This document shows positions 916-35,365 of a DNA stretch of 35,365 bases, piece after piece. The DNA is taken from the NCBI GenBank assembly GCA_012730045.1, contig JAAYBR010000029.1, forward strand, positions 1-35,365, in the 5' to 3' direction. The notes beneath the pieces are model-generated. The model saw nothing but the letters and a program-made list of their open reading frames with translations, did not search any database and was not told the DNA's origin. The position numbers were made by a program, and so were the translations under genes. The stretch comes from Candidatus Hydrogenedentota bacterium. Lineage in GTDB: Bacteria > Hydrogenedentota > Hydrogenedentia > Hydrogenedentales > CAITNO01. Each line of letters starts with the position of its first letter. Within the stretch, counting starts at the first letter, position 1.

Positions 916-2250
916 TCATTCCGCCAGATCGTCGTAGGCGTCGGCCTTTGCGTTCCATAGCGACAGGAAGGTGAAGACGCCGGCCACGGCCGCGCCGATG
1001 ATGACGATGTAGGCATAGCGCCAGCCGAAGTGCTCGGCCAGCGCGCCCAGGCCGACGCCCGACACGACCACGCTCGCGTAGCTGAACAGGCTCGTGAAGC
1101 CGATTGACGTCCCGGCCAGCTTCTTGGTCGAGATGTTGGCGGCCGTGACGCCGGTCAGCGCCTGAGGGCCGTAGATGCAGAAGCCCGCCGCGAGCAGTGT
1201 CGCAAACAGGAGCCATGACGGCGCGGTGGCGGGAAGCATCCAAAAACAGAACATGAACAGCGCGGCTCCAGCCATGCAGAACACGCAGGTGCGCGGCGCG
1301 CGGCCCTTCATGAACCGGTCGGTGATCCAGCCCGCGCCCAGCATGCCGGCAACGCCGGCAATCTCAAAGGCCGCCACCATCCAGCCGGCGTGGTCGAGGG
1401 AGAGCCCTTTGGATTCTTTGAGCAGCGTGGGGCCCCAGTCCAAAACGGCGAACCGGACCACATAGATCGTGAAGTTGGCGCATCCGAGCATCCAGATCAG
1501 CGGATTGCAGAAGACCCGTTCGCGGAGGAACTGCCTGTTGACGGGTTCGTTTGCGCGGGCGCCCCTCACTTCCGTGGCGGCAATCTCCGGAAGGCCCACG
1601 GATGAGGGCGTGTCGCGCAGCGCCGCCGCAAGGGCCAGGAGTCCCGCCCCGGCAATCACCGCCGGCGCCCAGAAGCAGAAGCGCCACGCGCCCGGCCCGC
1701 CGTAAGCCATGATGTATCCGCACAGGATCGCGATCAGCCCCGCCCCGACGGAGTGCGACGTGTTCCAGATGGACATTTTGGTCGCGAGTTCGTTTGGGGG
1801 TATCCAGTGCGTGAGGAGGCGCGCGCAGGGCGGGAAACCGCTGCCCTGGAACAGGCCGTTCAGCACCCAAAGGACGCCGAGGATGACGATCAGGGCCGAC
1901 ATGAAGGCCGGGCCGGAGGGGGTCCCGGTGAAAACCTCGGCAAAGACCGGCCCGAATCCGAACGCGACGTTCACCAACAGACACAAGGCGAGCCCCACCA
2001 TCATGTAGGTGCGGGAATTGCAGCGGTCGCCCCAGTAGCCGTTCAGAAACTTGGACAGCCCGTAGACCAATCCGTGCAACGTCAGAAACGCGCCAAGGCT
2101 CGTCTTGGTAATGCCCAATTCGGACTCGATGCCGGGCATCGCCAGGCTGAAATTCTTGCGCAGGAAGTAGAAGAGCGTGTAGCCAACCATCGTGGCGGCA
2201 ATCGTGCGGTACTGCCAGTACTTGAACCGTTTGGCGCTCTCCGACGTCAT
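916..2250 (-). CDS. MFS permease, organophosphate/phosphate antiporter (GlpT/UhpC-like) type
   Basis: A 444-residue polytopic membrane protein with about 12 hydrophobic segments. The N-terminal part has YTLFYFLRKNFSLAMPG and GLVYGLSKFLNGYWGDR, typical of the GlpT/UhpT/UhpC branch (organophosphate:phosphate antiporters and the UhpC sensor). It probably moves a phosphorylated sugar or glycerol phosphate across the inner membrane; the substrate cannot be read from sequence. The ATG at 2250 is chosen; an in-frame TTG one codon upstream is equally spaced from AGGAGC. The gene stands alone, and related repeat blocks lie on both sides in the same orientation, so it may have been gained or lost by recombination between them. 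Confidence 0.85.
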   Translation of the reverse strand: MTSESAKRFKYWQYRTIAATMVGYTLFYFLRKNFSLAMPGIESELGITKTSLGAFLTLHGLVYGLSKFLNGYWGDRCNSRTYMMVGLALCLLVNVAFGFGPVFAEVFTGTPSGPAFMSALIVILGVLWVLNGLFQGSGFPPCARLLTHWIPPNELATKMSIWNTSHSVGAGLIAILCGYIMAYGGPGAWRFCFWAPAVIAGAGLLALAAALRDTPSSVGLPEIAATEVRGARANEPVNRQFLRERVFCNPLIWMLGCANFTIYVVRFAVLDWGPTLLKESKGLSLDHAGWMVAAFEIAGVAGMLGAGWITDRFMKGRAPRTCVFCMAGAALFMFCFWMLPATAPSWLLFATLLAAGFCIYGPQALTGVTAANISTKKLAGTSIGFTSLFSYASVVVSGVGLGALAEHFGWRYAYIVIIGAAVAGVFTFLSLWNAKADAYDDLAE

Positions 2251-2448
2251 CAAGTCTGGTTGCTCCTGCGGGCGCGTCCCTGTTCGCGTTGCACGCGCCT
2301 GGCGCCGCGCCTGTTCTTGCCAAAGGGACAGGACGATACGGACAAGATGATACTCTACAGCCGAAAGCCCCGGTTTTCAAAGCCAAGAGCCGCAGTGCTC
2401 TCGAAGCAGAGCCCCTCCATGAGAAAAACCGGCGCCGCGGCCCCCCTT

Positions 2449-2779
2449 CAACACCACGGCTTCGACGTGTCCCTAACCCCGGACGGACAGACAACCGTTG
2501 CGTCAGCGCACCCTGGGATCGCCGGGCTTCCCCCTGGCGCGGGCTTGGCCACTGCCCAGATACGGCGCGTTGACCCAAGAACACGCCTGGCGAGGGAAGA
2601 CAAGGCCGCCGGGACGGCGGCGCTACGGGCGCGTTGACCCAAGACCACGCCTGGCGAGGGAAGACAAGGCCGCCGGGACGGCGGCGCTACGGGTGCGCTG
2701 ACCCAAGACCACGCCTGGCGAGGGAAGACAAGGCCGCCGGGACGGCGGTGCTACGGGCGCGCTGACCCAAGAACACGCC
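2449..2779. repeat. Second copy of the repeat block, with three 64-bp tandem units
   Basis: From 2449 the sequence matches the block starting at 392 (shared CAACACCACGGC, TCGACGTGTCCCT, CACCCTGGGATCGCC), then enters 64-bp units beginning at 2588, 2652 and 2716 (TGGCGAGGGAAGACAAGG). It is in the same orientation as the left block, so the MFS gene lies between direct repeats about 2.06 kb apart. The stretch 2254-2448 upstream of the MFS gene shows no gene. Confidence 0.85.
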
Positions 2780-2812
2780 GGGACGGCGGGGTTGCGGACG
2801 CCGGCCCTCCCC

Positions 2813-2838
2813 GTAGCGCAGGCGTCCCGCCTGCCTTG
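2813..2838 (-). repeat. Inverted single copy of the array hairpin with a rewritten stem
   Basis: Read on the plus strand this is GTAGCGC, then AGGC-GTCCC-GCCT, then GCCTTG. The array unit at 2601-2626, read on the minus strand, is GTAGCGC, then CGCC-GTCCC-GGCG, then GCCTTG. Flanks and the GTCCC loop are kept, while two stem base pairs differ with pairing preserved. It lies just past the stop of the pseudopilin gene (ends 2857, minus strand) and could act as its 3' hairpin. Confidence 0.75.
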
Positions 2839-2856
2839 TTTTCTCCGCGGCTCCCC

Positions 2857-3867
2857 CTACCACACGCCGCCCATGGCGACCATGAGGGGGCTGCAGGGGA
2901 TGCTTTCGGAGGGGTAGCGGATGAATTCGACGTGGCCGTCCATGTAGAGGGCGTTGGCGCCGCCGGGGAGGTGGTTGAACTGGCCGTTGCCGTCTTTGCG
3001 GAGGCCCTGGGTGGCGTCCCACATCACGGGGACTTCGGACTGGCCCTTGGCGGAGGCGCCGGCGTTGTTGATGTCGGTGATGAGGAAGCGCTCGACGCCC
3101 TCGCGGAGGCGGTAGATGGTCTGGCCGCCGCCGTTGCCGCGGAGGGCGTAGGCCTCCCAGGCGGGGGTGCCGTCGGCGAGGTAGGGGCTGACGGTGACCT
3201 GGATGCAGCGGCTCTGGCACCAGGTCTTCATGCGGGCGGGGTCGAGGGCGGCGAGGTCAATGTCCTCCTCCAGGATGCGTCGGCCCTCATTGCGCGTGAC
3301 CTCGCTGCCGAGGCCGGCGTCCATGTTCAGTTTGCAGTCGGCGGCGAGGGTCATGGAGGCCCACACGTCGGGGTCCTCGGCCATCCACGCGGCGTAGACG
3401 TAGCTCTGCTCGTCGTTGAGGCACAGGGGGCTGAAGCTGCCCAGCGACGGGGCGACGCCGAGGGCCTGCCCGTCGGTGTACCATTTCCAGCCCTTCGGGC
3501 CGACGTGGTCCTCCGGGAAGAACCGGGGGCTGGAGGGGCAGAAGAAGAGGGTGATGTCCGTGAGGTATTCGGGGTAGACGGCGACGCCGTCGGGCAGGGC
3601 CCAGAGGTCGCGGCTGCTGCCGGGGGCGTCGGGGCTCTCGCCGAGGGCGAGGTGGCGGCCGTTGAGGGCGGACGGGGGGAACGCGCCGCGGTGCTCCGAG
3701 GCGTACATCTTGAAGATGACGCCGAACTGCTTGAGGTTGCTGGCGCAGCTTGCGCGGCGGGCGGCCTCGCGGGCGCGGGCGAGGGCGGGCAGGAGCATGG
3801 CGGCGAGGATGGCGATGATGGCGATGACGACCAGCAGCTCGATGAGGGTAAAGGCGTTTCTTCTCAC
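2857..3867 (-). CDS. DUF1559-type prepilin-like protein
   Basis: 336 residues. The N-terminus is a type IV prepilin/pseudopilin class signal: [14 protein letters not shown] followed by a hydrophobic helix ending near [16 protein letters not shown], so processing by a prepilin peptidase at the A-F bond is expected. The large C-terminal part is the DUF1559-like domain common in Planctomycetes and relatives. Near the end [13 protein letters not shown] matches the H-X9-DG processing-associated motif with one extra residue. I chose the GTG at 3867 because AAGGAG lies 8 bases upstream; the GTG at 3876 would overlap that site. No pilus assembly gene lies nearby, so its partner machinery is elsewhere. 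Role: probable surface or periplasmic pseudopilin of unknown function. Confidence 0.85.
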
Positions 3868-3941
3868 GGGACACACTCCTTCCCCCGGTTAATCACGGGC
3901 CGGCCGGGAAAGTTCCCCGGGCGGGGCGGGCATAAAAGGGG

Positions 3942-3969
3942 CCGTCCCCGGACCGGGGTCCGGGGACGG
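3942..3969 (-). terminator. Terminator of the PFK gene
   Basis: A 13-bp near-perfect GC stem (3942-3954 with 3957-3969) followed on the minus strand by CCCCTTTTAT. It lies 26 bases past the stop of the gene ending at 3996 and separates it from the pseudopilin gene downstream. Confidence 0.75.
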
Positions 3970-3995
3970 GAAAAACACGGACCGCCGCGGGGCGG

Positions 3996-5207
3996 TCACT
4001 TGCTGAGGATTTTGCCGACGCGCGGGGCCTGGATGCGCTCCATGAGCGGCATCTGGCCGGCGAGCGGGCGGGCGTAGCGGAGGAAGTCTTCGGTCACATG
4101 GTTGCCCTCGGCGTTGATGAAGCGGTCGGGCATCTCGGTGGAGTGGCGCGCGACGGTCTCCAGCGGCGTCAGGAAGTAGGACACGGCGTAGTCGCCCTCG
4201 CGCTTGATGGCGACGGAGCCGTCCACGTTGTGCCAGATGGCGTACTGGGCGGCCTTCTCGCCGACCTCGCGGGCCTCGTACTGGTCCACCTCGGACACGC
4301 AGCCGAGGAAGGAGCGCTGGAGGTAGCCGAACGTGTCCGACCGGACGCGCTTGATGCCCGTGAGCTTCACGTGGGACGCGAGCAGGTCGCCCAGGGCGCC
4401 GGTGCCGGAGAGCTGGGCGTTGCCGTGCAGGTCCTTCTCGCCGCCCGTGAACGCCGTGATGATGGGCGTGCCGTTCTCGTCCACGATGCCCTCGGAGGCG
4501 GCGACGACGCAGCGGCCGTACTTCTCGTACACCGCCTTCACGTCCGCCAGGAACTTCTCCTTGACGAAGGTGCGCTCGGGCAGGTAGACGAGGTGCGGGC
4601 CGTCGTCCGGGTACTTCCGCGCCAGGGCGCTGGCGGCGGTGAGGAAGCCCGCGTGGCGGCCCATGACGATGGCGATGTACACGCCGGGGATGGCGCGGTT
4701 GTCGAGGTTGGCACCCGCGAAGGCCTGCGCCACGAACTTGGCGGCGGAGCCGAAGCCCGGGCAGTGGTCCGTGACCTTCAGGTCGTTGTCAATGGTCTTG
4801 GGGACGTGGATGACGCGCAGCTCGTAGCCCGCCTCGTGCGCCTGCTCGTTCACGATGCGGCAGGTGTCCGCGCTGTCGTTGCCGCCGCAGTAGAAGAAAT
4901 AGCGGATGTTGTGGGCCTGGCAGGTCTGGAAAATCCGCTTGCAGTACTCCACGTCGGGCTTGTCGCGCGTGGAGAGCAGGCCGGCCGACGGGGTCGCCGC
5001 GACGGCCTCCAGGTTGTGGGTGGTGGCCTCGGTCAGGTCGAGAAAGTTCTCGTTGATGATGCCGTTCACCCCGTGGAGCGCGCCGTAGACATGCGTGACC
5101 TGCGGGAACTTGCGGGACTCGAGCACCGCGCCCACCACGCTCTGGTTGATGACCGCCGTCGGGCCGCCGCCCTGGGCGACCAGCACTTTTCCTTCGAGCT
5201 TGGCCAT
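3996..5207 (-). CDS. Pyrophosphate-dependent 6-phosphofructokinase
   Basis: 403 residues; phosphorylates fructose 6-phosphate, probably with pyrophosphate as donor, in cytosolic glycolysis. Family motifs: AQGGGPTAVIN near residue 11, GGNDSADT at 108-115, PKTIDND at 126-132 with the catalytic Asp in TID, GFGSAAKF, and MGRHAGFLTA. ATP enzymes have GGDGS; the Asp in the Gly position (here GGNDS) and the Lys of PKTIDND are hallmarks of PPi users. The ATG at 5207 is preceded by AGGAGGAGTT; a longer frame to 5291 lacks such a site. It is a single-gene unit with its own promoter and terminator. Donor specificity is inferred from motif, not measured. Confidence 0.88.
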   Translation of the reverse strand: MAKLEGKVLVAQGGGPTAVINQSVVGAVLESRKFPQVTHVYGALHGVNGIINENFLDLTEATTHNLEAVAATPSAGLLSTRDKPDVEYCKRIFQTCQAHNIRYFFYCGGNDSADTCRIVNEQAHEAGYELRVIHVPKTIDNDLKVTDHCPGFGSAAKFVAQAFAGANLDNRAIPGVYIAIVMGRHAGFLTAASALARKYPDDGPHLVYLPERTFVKEKFLADVKAVYEKYGRCVVAASEGIVDENGTPIITAFTGGEKDLHGNAQLSGTGALGDLLASHVKLTGIKRVRSDTFGYLQRSFLGCVSEVDQYEAREVGEKAAQYAIWHNVDGSVAIKREGDYAVSYFLTPLETVARHSTEMPDRFINAEGNHVTEDFLRYARPLAGQMPLMERIQAPRVGKILSK

Positions 5208-5289
5208 GGATAACTCCTCCTGGACTGTGTGGTTTGCCCCTCGGAGAGCCGGGAATTCGCCGGTGAAACACGGCGTCAAGGGGTGGCGC

Positions 5290-18236: not shown

Positions 18237-19523
18237 TCAGACGAGCTGTTTCTTCCCCGCGTCAAAGGTGACCCGCCTGCCCTGGCGGTAGGCGGCGTCG
18301 GCGAGGATGACGGCGACGCCCTGGCGGTAGCCCCAGTCCATGCCGGCGTTGGGCGCGCCGCCGTTGCGGATGCAGCCGAGCCAGTTTTCGATGTGGGCCT
18401 GTCCGGGGTAGGGCGGGTCGGTGTCGAGGAGCTTCGTGGGCGGGATGCTGTCGTCCACGCCCTCGCTGGAGTAGACGGGGTTGCCGAGGTCGTGGCCGAA
18501 GCCCGCGCGGAGGAGGCCCTTCTCGAACATGAAGGTGGTGCTCTCGCTGTGGAGGGCGCTGCCGAAGTGGCTGTTGAACTGCGTGAAGAACCCGTCGTAC
18601 TCGAGCACCGCCACGGTCTGGTCGGGGGCGTCGCAGAGCGGGTCGGCGGAGGAGGCATAGCGCGCGCCGAAGGCCGTGGCCGCCTTCGGCAGGCCGCAGC
18701 CCGTGACGAAGTGGACAGTGTTGATGAAGTGGCTCATCCACCCACCGATGGTGCCGCTGGTGAAGTCGAGGTAGCCCATCCATTTCGCGTGCTGGTGGGC
18801 GTTGAAGGGGCGGTCGGACCGGTTGTGCAGGAAGGCCTTCCAGTCCGTCTCCGCCTCGGTCTCGGGGCCCGTGTAGCCGTTCCAGTAGGGGACCGTGAGG
18901 GACTCGGTGGACTCGATGCGGAAGAGGCGGCCAAGTTTGCCCTCCCGGATGAAGTCGCGGATGGCGGCCGCGCCCGCGCCGCTCACGCCCTGCGTGCCGT
19001 GCTGCACGACGCACTTGGACCCCTTCACGGCCTCCACCAGCGCCAGCAGCTCGGGGAGGTCCGCCGGGGTCGGCGCGATGGGCTTCTCGACGTAGACATG
19101 CTTCCCGGCGGCGACGGCGGCCATCGTGTGCGAGCAGTGGTGGTGGTCCGGCGTGGCGATGATGACCGCGTCCACATCGGCGCGGTCCAGCAGCGCGCGG
19201 GCGTCCGCGGAGACCTCCGGCTTCAGGCCGTAGAGCTTCTCGGCCTCCGCCGGGTAGGTGTCGCGGCGGTGCTTCCAGATGTCGCACACCGCCACCAGCG
19301 CCGTGTTCGCGTTCGCCGGGTGGACCATGTTCTGCATCACCCACCGGCCCCGGCCCCCGCAGCCGATCAGGCCGAGGCTGACCCGGTCGTTCGCGCCGAC
19401 GACCCGCGCCGCGCTCGCCGCGTCCATCCGCGCGAAGGTCCAGCCCGCCGCGCCCGCGGCCAGGGCGCCCCGCATGAACTGCCGCCGGCTCGTGCCGGCC
19501 TGTCCGGTCTGCGTTGTCTTCAT
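18237..19523 (-). CDS. Tat-exported Gfo/Idh/MocA-family oxidoreductase
   Basis: 428 residues. Twin-arginine signal TSRRQFMRGALAAGAAGW (11-28), then the nucleotide-binding fold with GLIGCGGRGR (51-60), IIATPDHHH and HVYVEKPIAPT (the EKP catalytic Lys), and a C-terminal alpha/beta domain. Such exported members are abundant in Planctomycetes and related groups and usually act on sugars; the substrate is unknown. The ATG at 19523 follows AGGAGA. It precedes the GH106 gene on the same strand, which suggests a joint role in carbohydrate breakdown. A large hairpin repeat lies just upstream, between this gene and the divergent hydrolase. Confidence 0.92.
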   Translation of the reverse strand: MKTTQTGQAGTSRRQFMRGALAAGAAGWTFARMDAASAARVVGANDRVSLGLIGCGGRGRWVMQNMVHPANANTALVAVCDIWKHRRDTYPAEAEKLYGLKPEVSADARALLDRADVDAVIIATPDHHHCSHTMAAVAAGKHVYVEKPIAPTPADLPELLALVEAVKGSKCVVQHGTQGVSGAGAAAIRDFIREGKLGRLFRIESTESLTVPYWNGYTGPETEAETDWKAFLHNRSDRPFNAHQHAKWMGYLDFTSGTIGGWMSHFINTVHFVTGCGLPKAATAFGARYASSADPLCDAPDQTVAVLEYDGFFTQFNSHFGSALHSESTTFMFEKGLLRAGFGHDLGNPVYSSEGVDDSIPPTKLLDTDPPYPGQAHIENWLGCIRNGGAPNAGMDWGYRQGVAVILADAAYRQGRRVTFDAGKKQLV

Positions 19524-19614: not shown

Positions 19615-19715
19615 GATGGACGATATGGACACTATGGACGGTATGGACGAAGAAGGCCGGCCGTCCGCGCCGGTCCATACTGTCCATACCGTCCATAGTG
19701 TCCATATCGTCCATC
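19615..19715. repeat. 34-bp perfect inverted repeat built from 9-mers
   Basis: Left arm 19615-19648 consists of ATGGAC plus three variable bases repeated (GAT, ACT, GGT). The right arm 19682-19715 is its exact reverse complement, and a 33-base spacer contains GGCCGGCC. It sits between divergent genes, about 90 bases from each start codon, upstream of both. The 9-base period and GGAC core match the arrays around 30.3-31.2 kb. Confidence 0.9.
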
Positions 19716-29457: not shown

Positions 29458-30276
29458 ATGACCGACACCACCCTTTCCCCCGAACTCGCCGCGAAGGAGG
29501 CCGCCCTGCGCGGCGTTTTGGAGGCGTGCGGGTCCGTGGCCGTCGCGTATTCCGGCGGCGTGGACTCGTCGTATCTGGCGGATGTCGCCCATGAGGTTCT
29601 CGGAGACCGCGCGCTGCTGGTCATCGCGGACTCGCCGAGCATCCCGCGCGCGGAGCTGGCGGAGGCGCGGGCGCTGGCCGCCGCGCGGGGCTGGCGGCTG
29701 GACGTGATCCAGACGCGCGAATTTGACCTGGAGGACTACCGGCGCAACGACGGCCGCCGCTGCTACCACTGCAAGGCGACCCTGTTCTCCACGCTGCGCG
29801 CCCACGCCGCCGCCCGCGGCATCGCCGCGGTGGCCCACGGCGAGATCGCCGACGACGCCCTCGACCCCACGCGCCTCGGCGCGCTGGCGGCGCGGGAGCA
29901 GGGGGTGCGCGCGCCCCTCGCCGAGGCGGGCCTCACGAAGGACGACATCCGCGCCCTGAGCCGCCGCCGCGGCCTGCCCACGTGGGACAAGCCGTCCTTC
30001 GCGTGTTTGTCGTCGCGGTTTCCGAAAGGCGTGGCGCTGTCGCCGGAGGACCTGCTGCGCGTCGAGCGCGCCGAAGAGTGCCTGCGCGCGCTCGGGTTCA
30101 AACAGTACCGCGCGCGCCACCACGGCGACCTCTGCCGCATCGAGGTGGACCCGGCGGACCTGCCCCGGATGCTCGAGCCCGGGCTCCGCGAACAGCTCGT
30201 GGAGACCCTGCGCGGACTGGGCTACCGCCACGTCACGGTGGACCTGGCGGGCTACCGCACCGGCAGCACGGCGTAG
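29458..30276 (+). CDS. larE: LarE-family ATP-dependent sulfur transferase (PP-loop)
   Basis: 272 residues. PP-loop SGGVDSS (32-38) adenylates the cofactor carboxylate; the family inserts sulfur into the nickel-pincer nucleotide used by lactate racemase and relatives. Cysteines are at 102 and 105 in RCYHCK and at 183 in FACLSSR. Sacrificial LarE proteins use one Cys; this CxxC plus C set matches the form reported to hold a [4Fe-4S] cluster and transfer sulfur catalytically. No larA, larB or larC lies in the window. The ATG at 29458 follows AAAGGGG. It ends 12 bases before the convergent four-helix-bundle gene. Confidence 0.92.
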   Translation: MTDTTLSPELAAKEAALRGVLEACGSVAVAYSGGVDSSYLADVAHEVLGDRALLVIADSPSIPRAELAEARALAAARGWRLDVIQTREFDLEDYRRNDGRRCYHCKATLFSTLRAHAAARGIAAVAHGEIADDALDPTRLGALAAREQGVRAPLAEAGLTKDDIRALSRRRGLPTWDKPSFACLSSRFPKGVALSPEDLLRVERAEECLRALGFKQYRARHHGDLCRIEVDPADLPRMLEPGLREQLVETLRGLGYRHVTVDLAGYRTGSTA

Positions 30277-30288
30277 GGGGAGGGGAAG

Positions 30289-31011
30289 TCAGTCGGACAG
30301 GTCGGACAAGTCAGACGGGTCTGACAGGTCTGACAGTTCTGACTTGTTCAATCCGCCTCTTGAGTCCGACCCGTCCGACCTGTCCGACTTGTCCGACCTG
30401 TTCGACCCCTGCCGTCCCCTGGACTCCACGCGCTGCCGGTAGAGACTCTCCGTGAAACCGCCCTCGCGCAAAAAACTCCGCCCCTGGCTCTCGATTTGGC
30501 GTTTCAAGAGGTAGGCGGCCTGGTGCACCGCGCAAACCATGGCGTTTGCCGCCAGTTCGGGGGATGACTGCGCCACGAAATCCGCCAGTCCGGCGAGACC
30601 CGTCAGGCGGACCGTTCCGGGCGCGGCAGGGGGCAGGTCCTCGACCCGGTCCTTCGAGAGCCGGTCGCGCATGGCCCGCGCCTCCCGTGAATCCCCCGGC
30701 CATAGCCGCAGGCCGTTCTGGCGCAGAAAACTCTCGTAGTCGCGGAGGAGTTCATCGTTCAGGCTCGCCCGCGCCACATTGGTCAGTTTCATCTCGGTCT
30801 TGCGCGACGTGGCCGCCGCGCCGCTCCCCTCGCTGATGTTGCGCACCCCGCTGCGCGCCGCCTGCACCATCTGGTCCGTCATCCGCCGGTCCTGCGGGAA
30901 GAAACGCCGGCAAAACACCACCGTGGCGTCATACACCGCCTCCGCCACCTTGTAGCTGCGGAGGTTCCGGTAGCCGCCATGCGGAAGCAGGGGGGTGCCG
31001 TCGGAGCCCAT
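30289..31011 (-). CDS. Four-helix-bundle suffix-domain protein with repeat-encoded tail
   Basis: 240 residues. Residues about 8-110 form the four-helix-bundle (23S rRNA intervening-sequence protein/S23-like) domain: YRNLRSYKVAEAVYDATVVFC, MVQAARSGVRNISEGSGA, then a helix with ASLNDELLRDYESFLRQ. A second conserved segment, FVAQSSPELAANAMVCAVHQ to SFLREGGFTESLYRQR, is the suffix domain. The last 35 or so residues are Ser-Asp-x tripeptides (SDKSDRSDGSD) encoded by the flanking 9-base array, which also supplies the stop. Such bundles bind RNA or nucleoprotein in related systems (for example Avd of diversity-generating retroelements); the role here is unknown. The ATG at 31011 is chosen where homology begins. 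Confidence 0.85.
   Translation of the reverse strand: MGSDGTPLLPHGGYRNLRSYKVAEAVYDATVVFCRRFFPQDRRMTDQMVQAARSGVRNISEGSGAAATSRKTEMKLTNVARASLNDELLRDYESFLRQNGLRLWPGDSREARAMRDRLSKDRVEDLPPAAPGTVRLTGLAGLADFVAQSSPELAANAMVCAVHQAAYLLKRQIESQGRSFLREGGFTESLYRQRVESRGRQGSNRSDKSDRSDGSDSRGGLNKSELSDLSDPSDLSDLSD
30292..30406. repeat. 9-bp repeat array, left side, in inverted arms
   Basis: 30292-30344 holds six 9-mers of type GTCGGACAG (variants GTCAGACGG, GTCTGACAG). After a 19-base gap, 30364-30406 holds about five 9-mers of the complementary type GTCCGACCT. Together they form a long hairpin. The array encodes the last residues and stop of the four-helix-bundle gene on the minus strand. Confidence 0.88.
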
Positions 31012-31045
31012 GGTCCTATCCTCCCAAGGAAGCCAGAATAATCCA

Positions 31046-31231
31046 GTCGGACGGGTCGGACAAGTCTGACCTGTCGGACAAGTCTGACAAAAGCACTGCC
31101 GCAGGCGCCACTTTTCACCTGTCGGACGAGTCGGACCGGTCTGACTTGTCCGACAGGTCTGATAGAAGCATTGCGGCAGCCGCCACTTTCTGCTTGTCCG
31201 ACCCGTCCGACCTGTCCGACCTGTCCGATCT
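31046..31231. repeat. 9-bp repeat arrays, right side, with an interspersed longer unit
   Basis: Blocks of 9-mers at 31046-31088 and 31119-31162 (GTCGGAC/GTCTGAC types, partly reversed) and 31194-31230 (GTCCGACCT type). Between them two copies of a further unit occur: AAGCACTGCCGCAGGCGCC near 31091 and AAGCATTGCGGCAGCCGCC near 31167. The outermost block is inverted relative to the leftmost block at 30292, so the whole 0.94-kb unit has 9-mer inverted ends. It lies directly upstream of the four-helix-bundle gene and ends next to the stop of the following gene. Confidence 0.82.
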
Positions 31232-31232
31232 T

Positions 31233-32444
31233 TCAGCCCCCCGCCCGCCGCGCCATTTCGCGCAGCATCTTCTCCCGGCTGATGGGCTTCACTTCGCGCA
31301 CGATCCATTCGCGCATGGCGCGGCCCGGGCCGGTGTCCTGGGGCGCGGAGAGGAATTCCAGCTCCACCCCCAGCCGCTCCGCGACGCCCAGCGCGATCAG
31401 GGGCCACACGGCGCCGATGTCGCCGATGAGGGGGATGCTCCCCTCGTGGCGGGCGAAGCCGGACATCTCCATGCGGAAGGGCACCTTGAACATCTTGGTC
31501 TTGGGCAGGCCGTCGGCGATGGCGCGCTGCACCGCGCCGCCGGACCGCTCCGCGGCGCAGACCTGGTCCAGCGCGGGGTCGAGGTCCACGCGCACCAGCG
31601 TCTTCCCCTCCAGCGAGTAGGTGGGGTGGCCGTCCCAGGCGGACCACATGCCGTGGCCGGTGTAGCGCTCGAAGGGGCCGTCGTGGATTTCCTGCGTGAG
31701 GGCCACGGCGGACTCGATGATGACGTCGGCGGCCCCGAGCATCCGCGACAGGCGCGCGGCCCGTTCGCGCAGGGAAATGGTGTCGCCGATGTTGAGCCCG
31801 ACCGCGCCGCCGCCGATGAGCTGCGGCACCGTCACGATGACCGGCAGGCCGCGCTCCGCGCCCGCGCCGATCATGGTCCACGGGTCCGCGCCGAGGCCCG
31901 CGGCCTCCTCGAAGGACAGCCCCGCCCCGCGCGCAAGGGTCATGATCTCCTGCGACAGCCGCTCCAGCCACAGGCCCACGGGATACCCGAGGTTCCCCGC
32001 CGCCTTGATGATGGTCTTGCCCTCCGCCGCCTCGAGCCGCGCGAGGAGCCCCTCGTCCACCTGCGTGTGCCGCCGGATATCGTCCAGCGTCTCCGGCGAC
32101 ATGAGGGTCAGCTCGAACTCGCCGCCCCGCGGCAGCAGCTCCGGCGGCACCCCCAGCGGCGCGCCGGGACACCGTTTCACGCGGTCCAGCGTGCCGCCCA
32201 TCTCGTGGGAGACGACGGCGGAGCTGGTGGACACGCCGTCCACGATCCCCGCGCGCATGAGCCCCGCCAGCAGCGTGGTCACGCCCTCGTGGATGTTCGG
32301 GCCGCTGCCCGTGACCACGGCCACCTTCCCGCCACGCTCCTTGGCCGCGGCGATGCGTGCCACGGCCTCGTCTATGCGGGCGAGGGTGGCCTCCTCCAGG
32401 CGCTCCCGGCAGAGCGCCGCAACGGCGGCGTGCTCAGACTTCAT
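31233..32444 (-). CDS. Unrecognised protein with a Rossmann-like NAD/FAD-binding appearance
   Basis: 403 residues, soluble, no signal. I do not recognise a named family. The segment KVAVVTGSGPNIHEGVTTLL followed by AGIVDGVSTSSAVVSHEMGG resembles the deoxyhypusine-synthase-like NAD/FAD-binding fold (also found in the C-terminal part of LOR/SDH-type enzymes). Other striking segments are KTIIKAAGNLGYPVG, LGADPWTMIGAGAERG, GLNIGDTISLRERAARL and HGMWSAWDGHPTYSLEGK. The start overlaps the kdsB stop by 11 bases, so it is translated with kdsB and may serve the same cell-envelope sugar pathway or a housekeeping role. Its stop falls just beside the 9-mer array. Confidence 0.75.
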   Translation of the reverse strand: MKSEHAAVAALCRERLEEATLARIDEAVARIAAAKERGGKVAVVTGSGPNIHEGVTTLLAGLMRAGIVDGVSTSSAVVSHEMGGTLDRVKRCPGAPLGVPPELLPRGGEFELTLMSPETLDDIRRHTQVDEGLLARLEAAEGKTIIKAAGNLGYPVGLWLERLSQEIMTLARGAGLSFEEAAGLGADPWTMIGAGAERGLPVIVTVPQLIGGGAVGLNIGDTISLRERAARLSRMLGAADVIIESAVALTQEIHDGPFERYTGHGMWSAWDGHPTYSLEGKTLVRVDLDPALDQVCAAERSGGAVQRAIADGLPKTKMFKVPFRMEMSGFARHEGSIPLIGDIGAVWPLIALGVAERLGVELEFLSAPQDTGPGRAMREWIVREVKPISREKMLREMARRAGG

Positions 32445-35211: not shown

Positions 35212-35365
35212 CATTGAGAGCGAAGCGAAGAAGGACGGCGGAGAGATGGCGGCGCTATCGTCATTGCGGGCGAAGCGAAGGACGACGGAGAGATGGCGGC
35301 GCTATCGTCATTGCGAGCGAAGCGAAGGACGGCGGAGAGATGGCGGCGTTATCGTCATTGCGAGC
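35212..35365. repeat. 47-bp tandem repeat with CATTGCGAGCGAAGCGAAG core
   Basis: Core starts at 35212, 35262, 35309 and 35356; the first interval is 50 bases (three extra) and the next two are 47. Units also carry GACGGCGGAGAGATGGCGGC. The array continues past the right edge. The core resembles a CATTGCGAGCGAAGCGAAG motif seen dispersed in many bacterial genomes. No gene in 35163-35365. Confidence 0.88.

Follow-up and report, generated by a model that had tools for sequence, protein, structure and literature searches.

A four-helix-bundle gene with 9-bp repeat arrays in Hydrogenedentota: a proposed, previously unrecognised type of protein-plus-repeat element that could also explain long-known 7-base repeats

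Many genome annotations list S23/four-helix-bundle proteins to which no function is assigned; the accessory protein Avd assists the reverse transcriptase of DGRs. Short tandem heptamers, which include the cyanobacterial STRRs with their CCCCAAT- and TTGTCAA-type units, have served in strain typing and have gone unexplained for decades. Dispersed heptamers without a known cause have been described in Xanthomonas and Nostoc (GGGAATC; PMC4692102) and in Beggiatoaceae (TAACTGA; PMC4679880). In Coxiella, the intervening sequence (IVS) of the 23S rRNA is closed at its ends by an inverted-repeat stem, and tandem heptamers precede its S23 ORF (PMC4990558). In the REPIN/RAYT systems, the RAYT is a Y1 tyrosine transposase related to IS200/IS605 and the REPs are short palindromes (PMC3116915). 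Apart from the heptamers inside the Coxiella IVS, our literature search found no paper that connects dispersed arrays of heptamers or 9-mers with genes of the S23 or four-helix-bundle type.

The DNA analyzed here (the window) is a 35,365-nucleotide stretch from a Candidatus Hydrogenedentota bacterium, contig C29 of a 4.46-Mb genome (G000). It holds a block of 947 bp (30286–31232), composed of inverted outer arrays, a four-helix-bundle gene and internal arrays, between larE (29458–30276; TIGR00268) on one side and a convergent gene ending at 31233 on the other. A sequence-only reading had proposed an array-ended unit with inverted ends at 30289–31235; this unit is confirmed, its bounds being corrected to those of the empty site described below. 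The 4helix_suffix gene lies on the reverse strand (30289–31011) and encodes 240 amino acids, from an ATG at 31009–31011 to a TGA at 30289–30291, within an array end. The 9-bp array unit consists of a GTC-N-GAC core plus two free bases. On the left, an outer arm (30292–30343) and an inner arm (30364–30407) fold as single-stranded DNA into a hairpin of −37.5 kcal/mol (z = −6.9, with 0 shuffles as good), which bears out the long hairpin first suspected there. Translation agrees with the further suggestion that this array writes the end of the protein: it encodes the Ser-Asp-x tail (RSDKSDRSDGSDSRGG...SELSDLSDPSDLSDLSD*), part of it in the outer arm, and the stop codon. The upstream side of the gene carries arrays at 31046–31090, which is shorter in the filled relative G011:C864, and at 31121–31165, which is missing there, followed by the right outer arm (31193–31228), inverted relative to the left one. 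Two of these three right-side arrays belong to the two copies of a 75-bp imperfect direct duplication (31043–31117 and 31118–31192). The outer ends pair with each other (30293–30326 with 31195–31228, 91% over 34 nt). Other tandem repeats of the window are not of this array type: two mutually similar sets of 64-bp units (549–701 and 2564–2779; 2.4 and 3.4 copies) and a 47-bp unit in 3.2 copies (35212–35365). At about 19068–19241, a ~100-bp stretch has counterparts of ~72% identity in more than 20 other places of G011 and G014 and probably represents a repeated protein segment.

The window protein belongs to the TIGR04258 ('4helix_suffix') family, which it matches with 62.7 bits against a cut-off of 40. 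Helices 1–3 of its S23-like bundle (GGYRNLRSYKVAEAVYDATVVFC...DYESFLRQNGLRLW; 30700–30978, reverse strand) alone match TIGR02436 (27.5 bits, cut-off 24) and Pfam PF05635 (25.5 bits, under the cut-off of 33.8). The AlphaFold2 model (pLDDT 82.9, pTM 0.78) has the S23 structure 2gsc (gene XCC0516) as its best solved Foldseek match, with the whole bundle aligned (2gsc_B; target TM 0.87, probability 1.00, E = 0.13), and its structure matches also include the S23 structure 2rld and Avd-like models. The notion that the "suffix" (30418–30561, reverse strand) is an add-on was rejected: this segment, which gives the TIGR04258 match and is aligned by Foldseek to 2gsc, appears in the model as the fourth helix of the bundle. 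The window protein is thus predicted to have an S23/Avd-like fold with the TIGR04258 suffix as its helix 4, and its assignment to the S23 four-helix-bundle class, made initially from sequence alone, is supported by the fold match to 2gsc, with the profile scores divided (TIGR02436 above, PF05635 below its cut-off). It has no match to the Avd model NF033474 and no profile match to a transposase; the element is a single gene, within which neither nuclease nor integrase nor reverse transcriptase was found.

The only other genome of the genus, G011, is a bin with 10% contamination in which both alleles of the site are present. Its filled allele (contig G011:C864) carries the block at ~96% identity, with shorter arrays that differ from those of the window by whole units. 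Its empty allele (contig G011:C667, which ends 74 bp beyond the junction) has no array, and its flanks, ...GCGTAGGGGGAGGGG-CGCCCGG-TCAGCCGCCCGCC..., enclose 7 bp against the 947 of the window. The block lies in a 16-bp gap between convergent genes and leaves both neighboring stop codons intact; no target-site duplication is seen at the window block, and the 7 bp of the empty site are absent from the filled allele. Terminal inverted repeats and presence/absence polymorphism, both features of insertion sequences and MITEs, are found here. This is the one clean empty site that we found, as a second absence of a gene-bearing element (G053:C676) proved imprecise because 2.2 kb including a neighboring gene are replaced by ~295 bp. 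Element DNA is 80–85% identical between families, at unrelated sites. The empty site and the spread across phyla support mobility, which the first reading had offered with reserve; its mechanism is what we infer below.

TIGR04258 proteins occur in 42 of 68 Hydrogenedentota genomes, with up to 8 copies each. Around the 88 loci of this phylum set (flanks of up to 10 kb, array threshold 29 of 36), bases in arrays of 9-bp period amount to 26–63 per kb from −750 to +500 and to ~1.5 per kb beyond 3 kb. The enrichment at the suffix gene is thus ~20–40 times the background and sharply bounded, the signal dropping to zero or near zero just outside the gene zone; when periods from 5 to 17 were scanned at these loci, only 9 and 10 were clearly enriched. 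The independent set came from an array-blind protein search of GTDB genomes, which traced the suffix family to more than 20 phyla; among its carriers are the cultured Geomonas anaerohicana (L195), Geotalea toluenoxydans (L204) and Chlorobium ferrooxidans (L211). At the best 80 loci of this search, a sample skewed to classes A and E (see below) and including ~5 loci identical to first-set loci, the density of 9-bp arrays is 13.2 per kb around the gene and 0.00 over 420 kb of more distant sequence. Most of the genomes in the analysis are metagenome bins. Unit types, which were defined after viewing the first set, recur at 62/80 of these genes, with 320 unit pairs near and 11 far (~420 kb). In Hydrogenedentota, tandem units of a defined type stand at the gene in 75/88 loci; fewer than two recognised unit pairs were found at 13/88 Hydrogenedentota genes and 18/80 GTDB-wide genes. 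The possibility that the gene is a chance neighbor of common arrays was rejected on the near-gene enrichment in both sets and on the near absence of arrays from gene-free genomes. Since most homologs carry arrays, arrays are not equally common near unrelated genes, and the site is empty in one G011 contig (C667) and filled in another (C864), the protein-plus-repeat interpretation advanced at the outset is supported.

In general, inverted arrays enclose the gene; their unit, of 9 or 10 bp and usually based on GTCC, has two or three free spacer bases, and in many relatives arrays also split the gene in the helix 3–4 loop. Array zones at suffix loci lie upstream, in this loop inside the coding sequence, and downstream. 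Five main unit classes were distinguished: A, GTCCA[CT]NNN; B, GATCNGNCN; C, GTCCTATNN, GTCCTTNNN, GTCCCTNNN, TCCCATNNN and kin; D, GTCNGACNN, the class of the window; and E, GTCNGTGNNN, of period 10. A divergent suffix gene (L128, G009:C444) has arrays of ATTGACCNN, a class beyond these five. On a tree of 143 proteins, built with poorly filled linker columns omitted and with 117 rows labelled, array class requires 5 changes for 6 states, the minimum, without homoplasy, and shuffled labels need far more; a finer array label within classes is less stable on the protein tree (17 changes). At the C-terminus of many class B proteins (L049, L056, L078, L112 and others) is a zinc ribbon of the topoisomerase type, which could plausibly provide a further contact to nucleic acid; PF01396, scored on L049 only, gave 27.9 bits, below the cut-off of 32. 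The tail of a class D relative (L074, in G003) is similar to this class B ribbon.

Arrays of non-palindromic units are polar: (GGAC)n precedes (GTCC)n in 63/64 neighboring facing pairs (p = 7e−18), and the outermost array pair is inverted in 13/17 cases. Class D units are palindromes. Between facing arms, spacers show no complementarity above the chance level (0.37 versus 0.36 expected; 0.39 versus 0.38), and it is therefore the unit itself that appears to be read. Selection for a perfect hairpin was rejected, as spacers agree no more closely between facing arms than between unrelated ones, and yet the left array of the block and a second array of the window at 19616–19714 fold well. Between orthologous class D arrays of G000 and G011, in pairs picked by hand from alignments, 3/176 core positions have changed against 25/73 free-base and spacer positions (p = 3e−12). 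Polar arms, unpaired spacers and core conservation point to recognition of the unit core rather than of a perfect stem. An explanation of the period by codons was also rejected, because class E and one class D relative have period 10 and the S23 genes considered below have period 7.

Arrays also occur away from the gene. The one at 19616–19714 (ATGGACNNT / GTCCATANN; DNA fold z = −12.4) is inverted, gene-less and of a type different from the arrays of the block: it is A type, and matches the array at a suffix gene on contig C81 of the same genome. A pattern search of the 68 genomes for three unit types gave 1184 hits where the gene is present and 32 where it is absent; reversed patterns, used as controls, gave almost none. 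At least one dispersed array was present in 34/42 gene-bearing versus 3/26 gene-free genomes (p = 3e−8; p = 0.001 with high-quality genomes only), and for each of the three unit types the dispersed arrays match the resident gene (p = 6e−5, 4e−6 and 2e−4). One intergenic gap often holds several array types. Those dispersed arrays that were compared in G000 and G011 occupy orthologous places in both, with no empty site in G011, and their movement or turnover is therefore slow. At one dispersed E-type array (L253 versus L264; G000:C4 and G011:C1045), G011 has ~290 bp more than G000 within shared flanks, and this may be an insertion into an array. G029, of the same genus as G027 and G028, has 30 pattern hits for D9 arrays and no detected suffix gene; it may be a relic after gene loss, or the gene may lie in an assembly gap.

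TIGR02436 (S23) genes failed as an array-free control, as they too have arrays, with a period of 7 bp. In Hydrogenedentota, S23 genes without a suffix have 7-bp arrays on both sides, all at most 300 bp away except one at −684, and 11 of 12 plasmid S23 genes have them as well (in Nostoc, Anabaena, Planktothrix with CCCCAAT, Dolichospermum, Bernardetia, Chlorohelix and others). Over 26 S23 loci from ~24 lineages, period 7 reaches 38.9 per kb near the gene versus 8.3 far from it, and periods 9 and 10 are absent. At a common threshold, 80 suffix genes have period 9 or 10 and 1 has period 7, against 0 and 39 for S23 genes (p = 7e−31). An S23 sister protein gave 35.8 bits with the Avd model NF033474, below the cut-off of 80. 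Several plasmid S23 genes have further neighbors of interest: one lies between cas2 and cas1 (L310, Anabaena cylindrica pANACY.01, 2024–4115) and one just before cas1-cas2 (L319, Pseudanabaena galeata, 2492–5246). On plasmids of Dolichospermum (L314), Planktothrix (L317), Chlorohelix (L318) and Euhalothece (L312), the neighbors of S23 genes are helicase genes, DNA methylase genes or both, or a large gene whose function is unknown; 7-bp arrays lie in the intervening spaces, and the arrangement resembles a defence-type cluster.

The protein and its array thus co-evolve as a pair, the block is present or absent at its site, and the element is spread across phyla and between families. These observations are probably best accounted for by a single-gene, two-part element of protein and array, which would work in the manner of REPIN/RAYT with an S23/Avd-fold protein in place of the transposase; binding and the chemistry of movement are the parts that we infer. 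On facing arrays, an oligomer of the protein would read unit cores at one repeat per turn or near-turn and would bring the two arrays together as a pair; paired arrays could then mark the segment between them, which host machinery or an enzyme acting in trans would copy or move. Gene-bearing copies would then spread the gene and gene-less arrays would be passengers, a division of labor as in RAYT and REPIN, with no recognisable nuclease in the element.

A non-mobile system of regulation or chromosome organization, in which the protein controls expression or structure through dispersed arrays, bound as DNA or at the ends of mRNAs, and regulates itself through the arrays at its own gene, would agree with the conservation of core and place of dispersed arrays between species, with the arrays upstream, in the linker and downstream of the gene, and with the several array types in single intergenic gaps. 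We consider it rather unlikely, since gene and arrays are present or absent together, and presence or absence of the whole block, spread across phyla and 80–85% identical elements at unrelated sites in different families are typical of selfish spread. The S23 fold, with its matches to 2gsc, 2rld and Avd-like models and the sub-threshold NF033474 match of the S23 sister, also fits an element acting at the RNA level, a free cousin of 23S IVSs or DGR cofactors, in which the bundle would bind the array hairpin in the transcript, with a trans-acting reverse transcriptase then copying it back into DNA, as with Avd in DGRs. The array hairpin does lie inside the mRNA and its coding part, and the stem and heptamers of the Coxiella IVS offer a parallel (PMC4990558). 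However, the facing-arm spacers are not complementary, and a full RNA stem is therefore not under selection; the element has no reverse transcriptase; and the class D units are palindromic, as for DNA-binding dimers, so that we judge an RNA-level element unlikely. As to arrays arising passively, by replication slippage or at insertion hot spots, with the gene merely among them, the variation of array length by whole units between relatives speaks for this; such an origin is nonetheless very improbable, given that array class follows protein clade without homoplasy, that period follows protein class (80:1 versus 0:39), that gene-free genomes are nearly without arrays and that the empty site has none.

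The two-part element would be a previously unrecognised type, possibly a new kind of bacterial genomic parasite or of array-reading protein, present in more than 20 phyla. The period of the repeat can be predicted from protein class and its sequence, among suffix proteins, from protein clade, which links the puzzle of the heptamers to that of the S23 proteins, and elements of this type could also explain the 7-base repeats known for decades. More tentatively, and with a chance that we put at not quite even, S23/Avd-fold bundles may in general be the array-reading proteins of very widespread miniature elements whose period is set by class (7 bp for S23, 9 or 10 bp for 4helix_suffix), and may be the cause of the dispersed heptamers (STRRs, GGGAATC, TAACTGA) and of the 23S intervening sequences.

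Among the known systems, DGRs share with the window element the fold class of their accessory protein Avd, whereas the element has one gene only, no reverse transcriptase and a protein without a match to NF033474. Like the 23S IVS with its S23 ORF (PMC4990558; PF05635), it is an S23-fold ORF enclosed by inverted-repeat ends, and the Coxiella IVS adds heptamers to the likeness; it differs in being intergenic and in having an extended helix 3–4 loop, the TIGR04258 helix 4, 9-bp arrays and dispersed gene-less copies. The proposal that the unit is a free relative of such intervening sequences therefore stands as to kinship of fold (2gsc/2rld) and architecture and falls as to location, as the gene is not in rRNA: the window has no Rfam match, and the block sits between larE and the convergent gene. 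The heptamer repeats of cyanobacteria (STRR), of Xanthomonas and Nostoc (GGGAATC) and of Beggiatoaceae (TAACTGA) are likewise short, tandem, intergenic, dispersed, in some cases inverted, and unexplained, but period 7 goes with S23 proteins and 9 or 10 with 4helix_suffix proteins, the window having 9. The element is not a member of REPIN/RAYT because its protein is not a transposase: an S23/Avd-fold bundle without a recognised catalytic domain takes the place of the Y1 enzyme, and the repeats stand in tandem arrays whose period of 7, 9 or 10 bp depends on protein class and whose hairpin may lie in coding sequence. It nevertheless resembles REPIN/RAYT in having its own repeat type beside the gene, dispersed inverted doublets of the same type that match the resident gene, several gene-repeat pairs per genome, and a repeat type and gene that evolve together.
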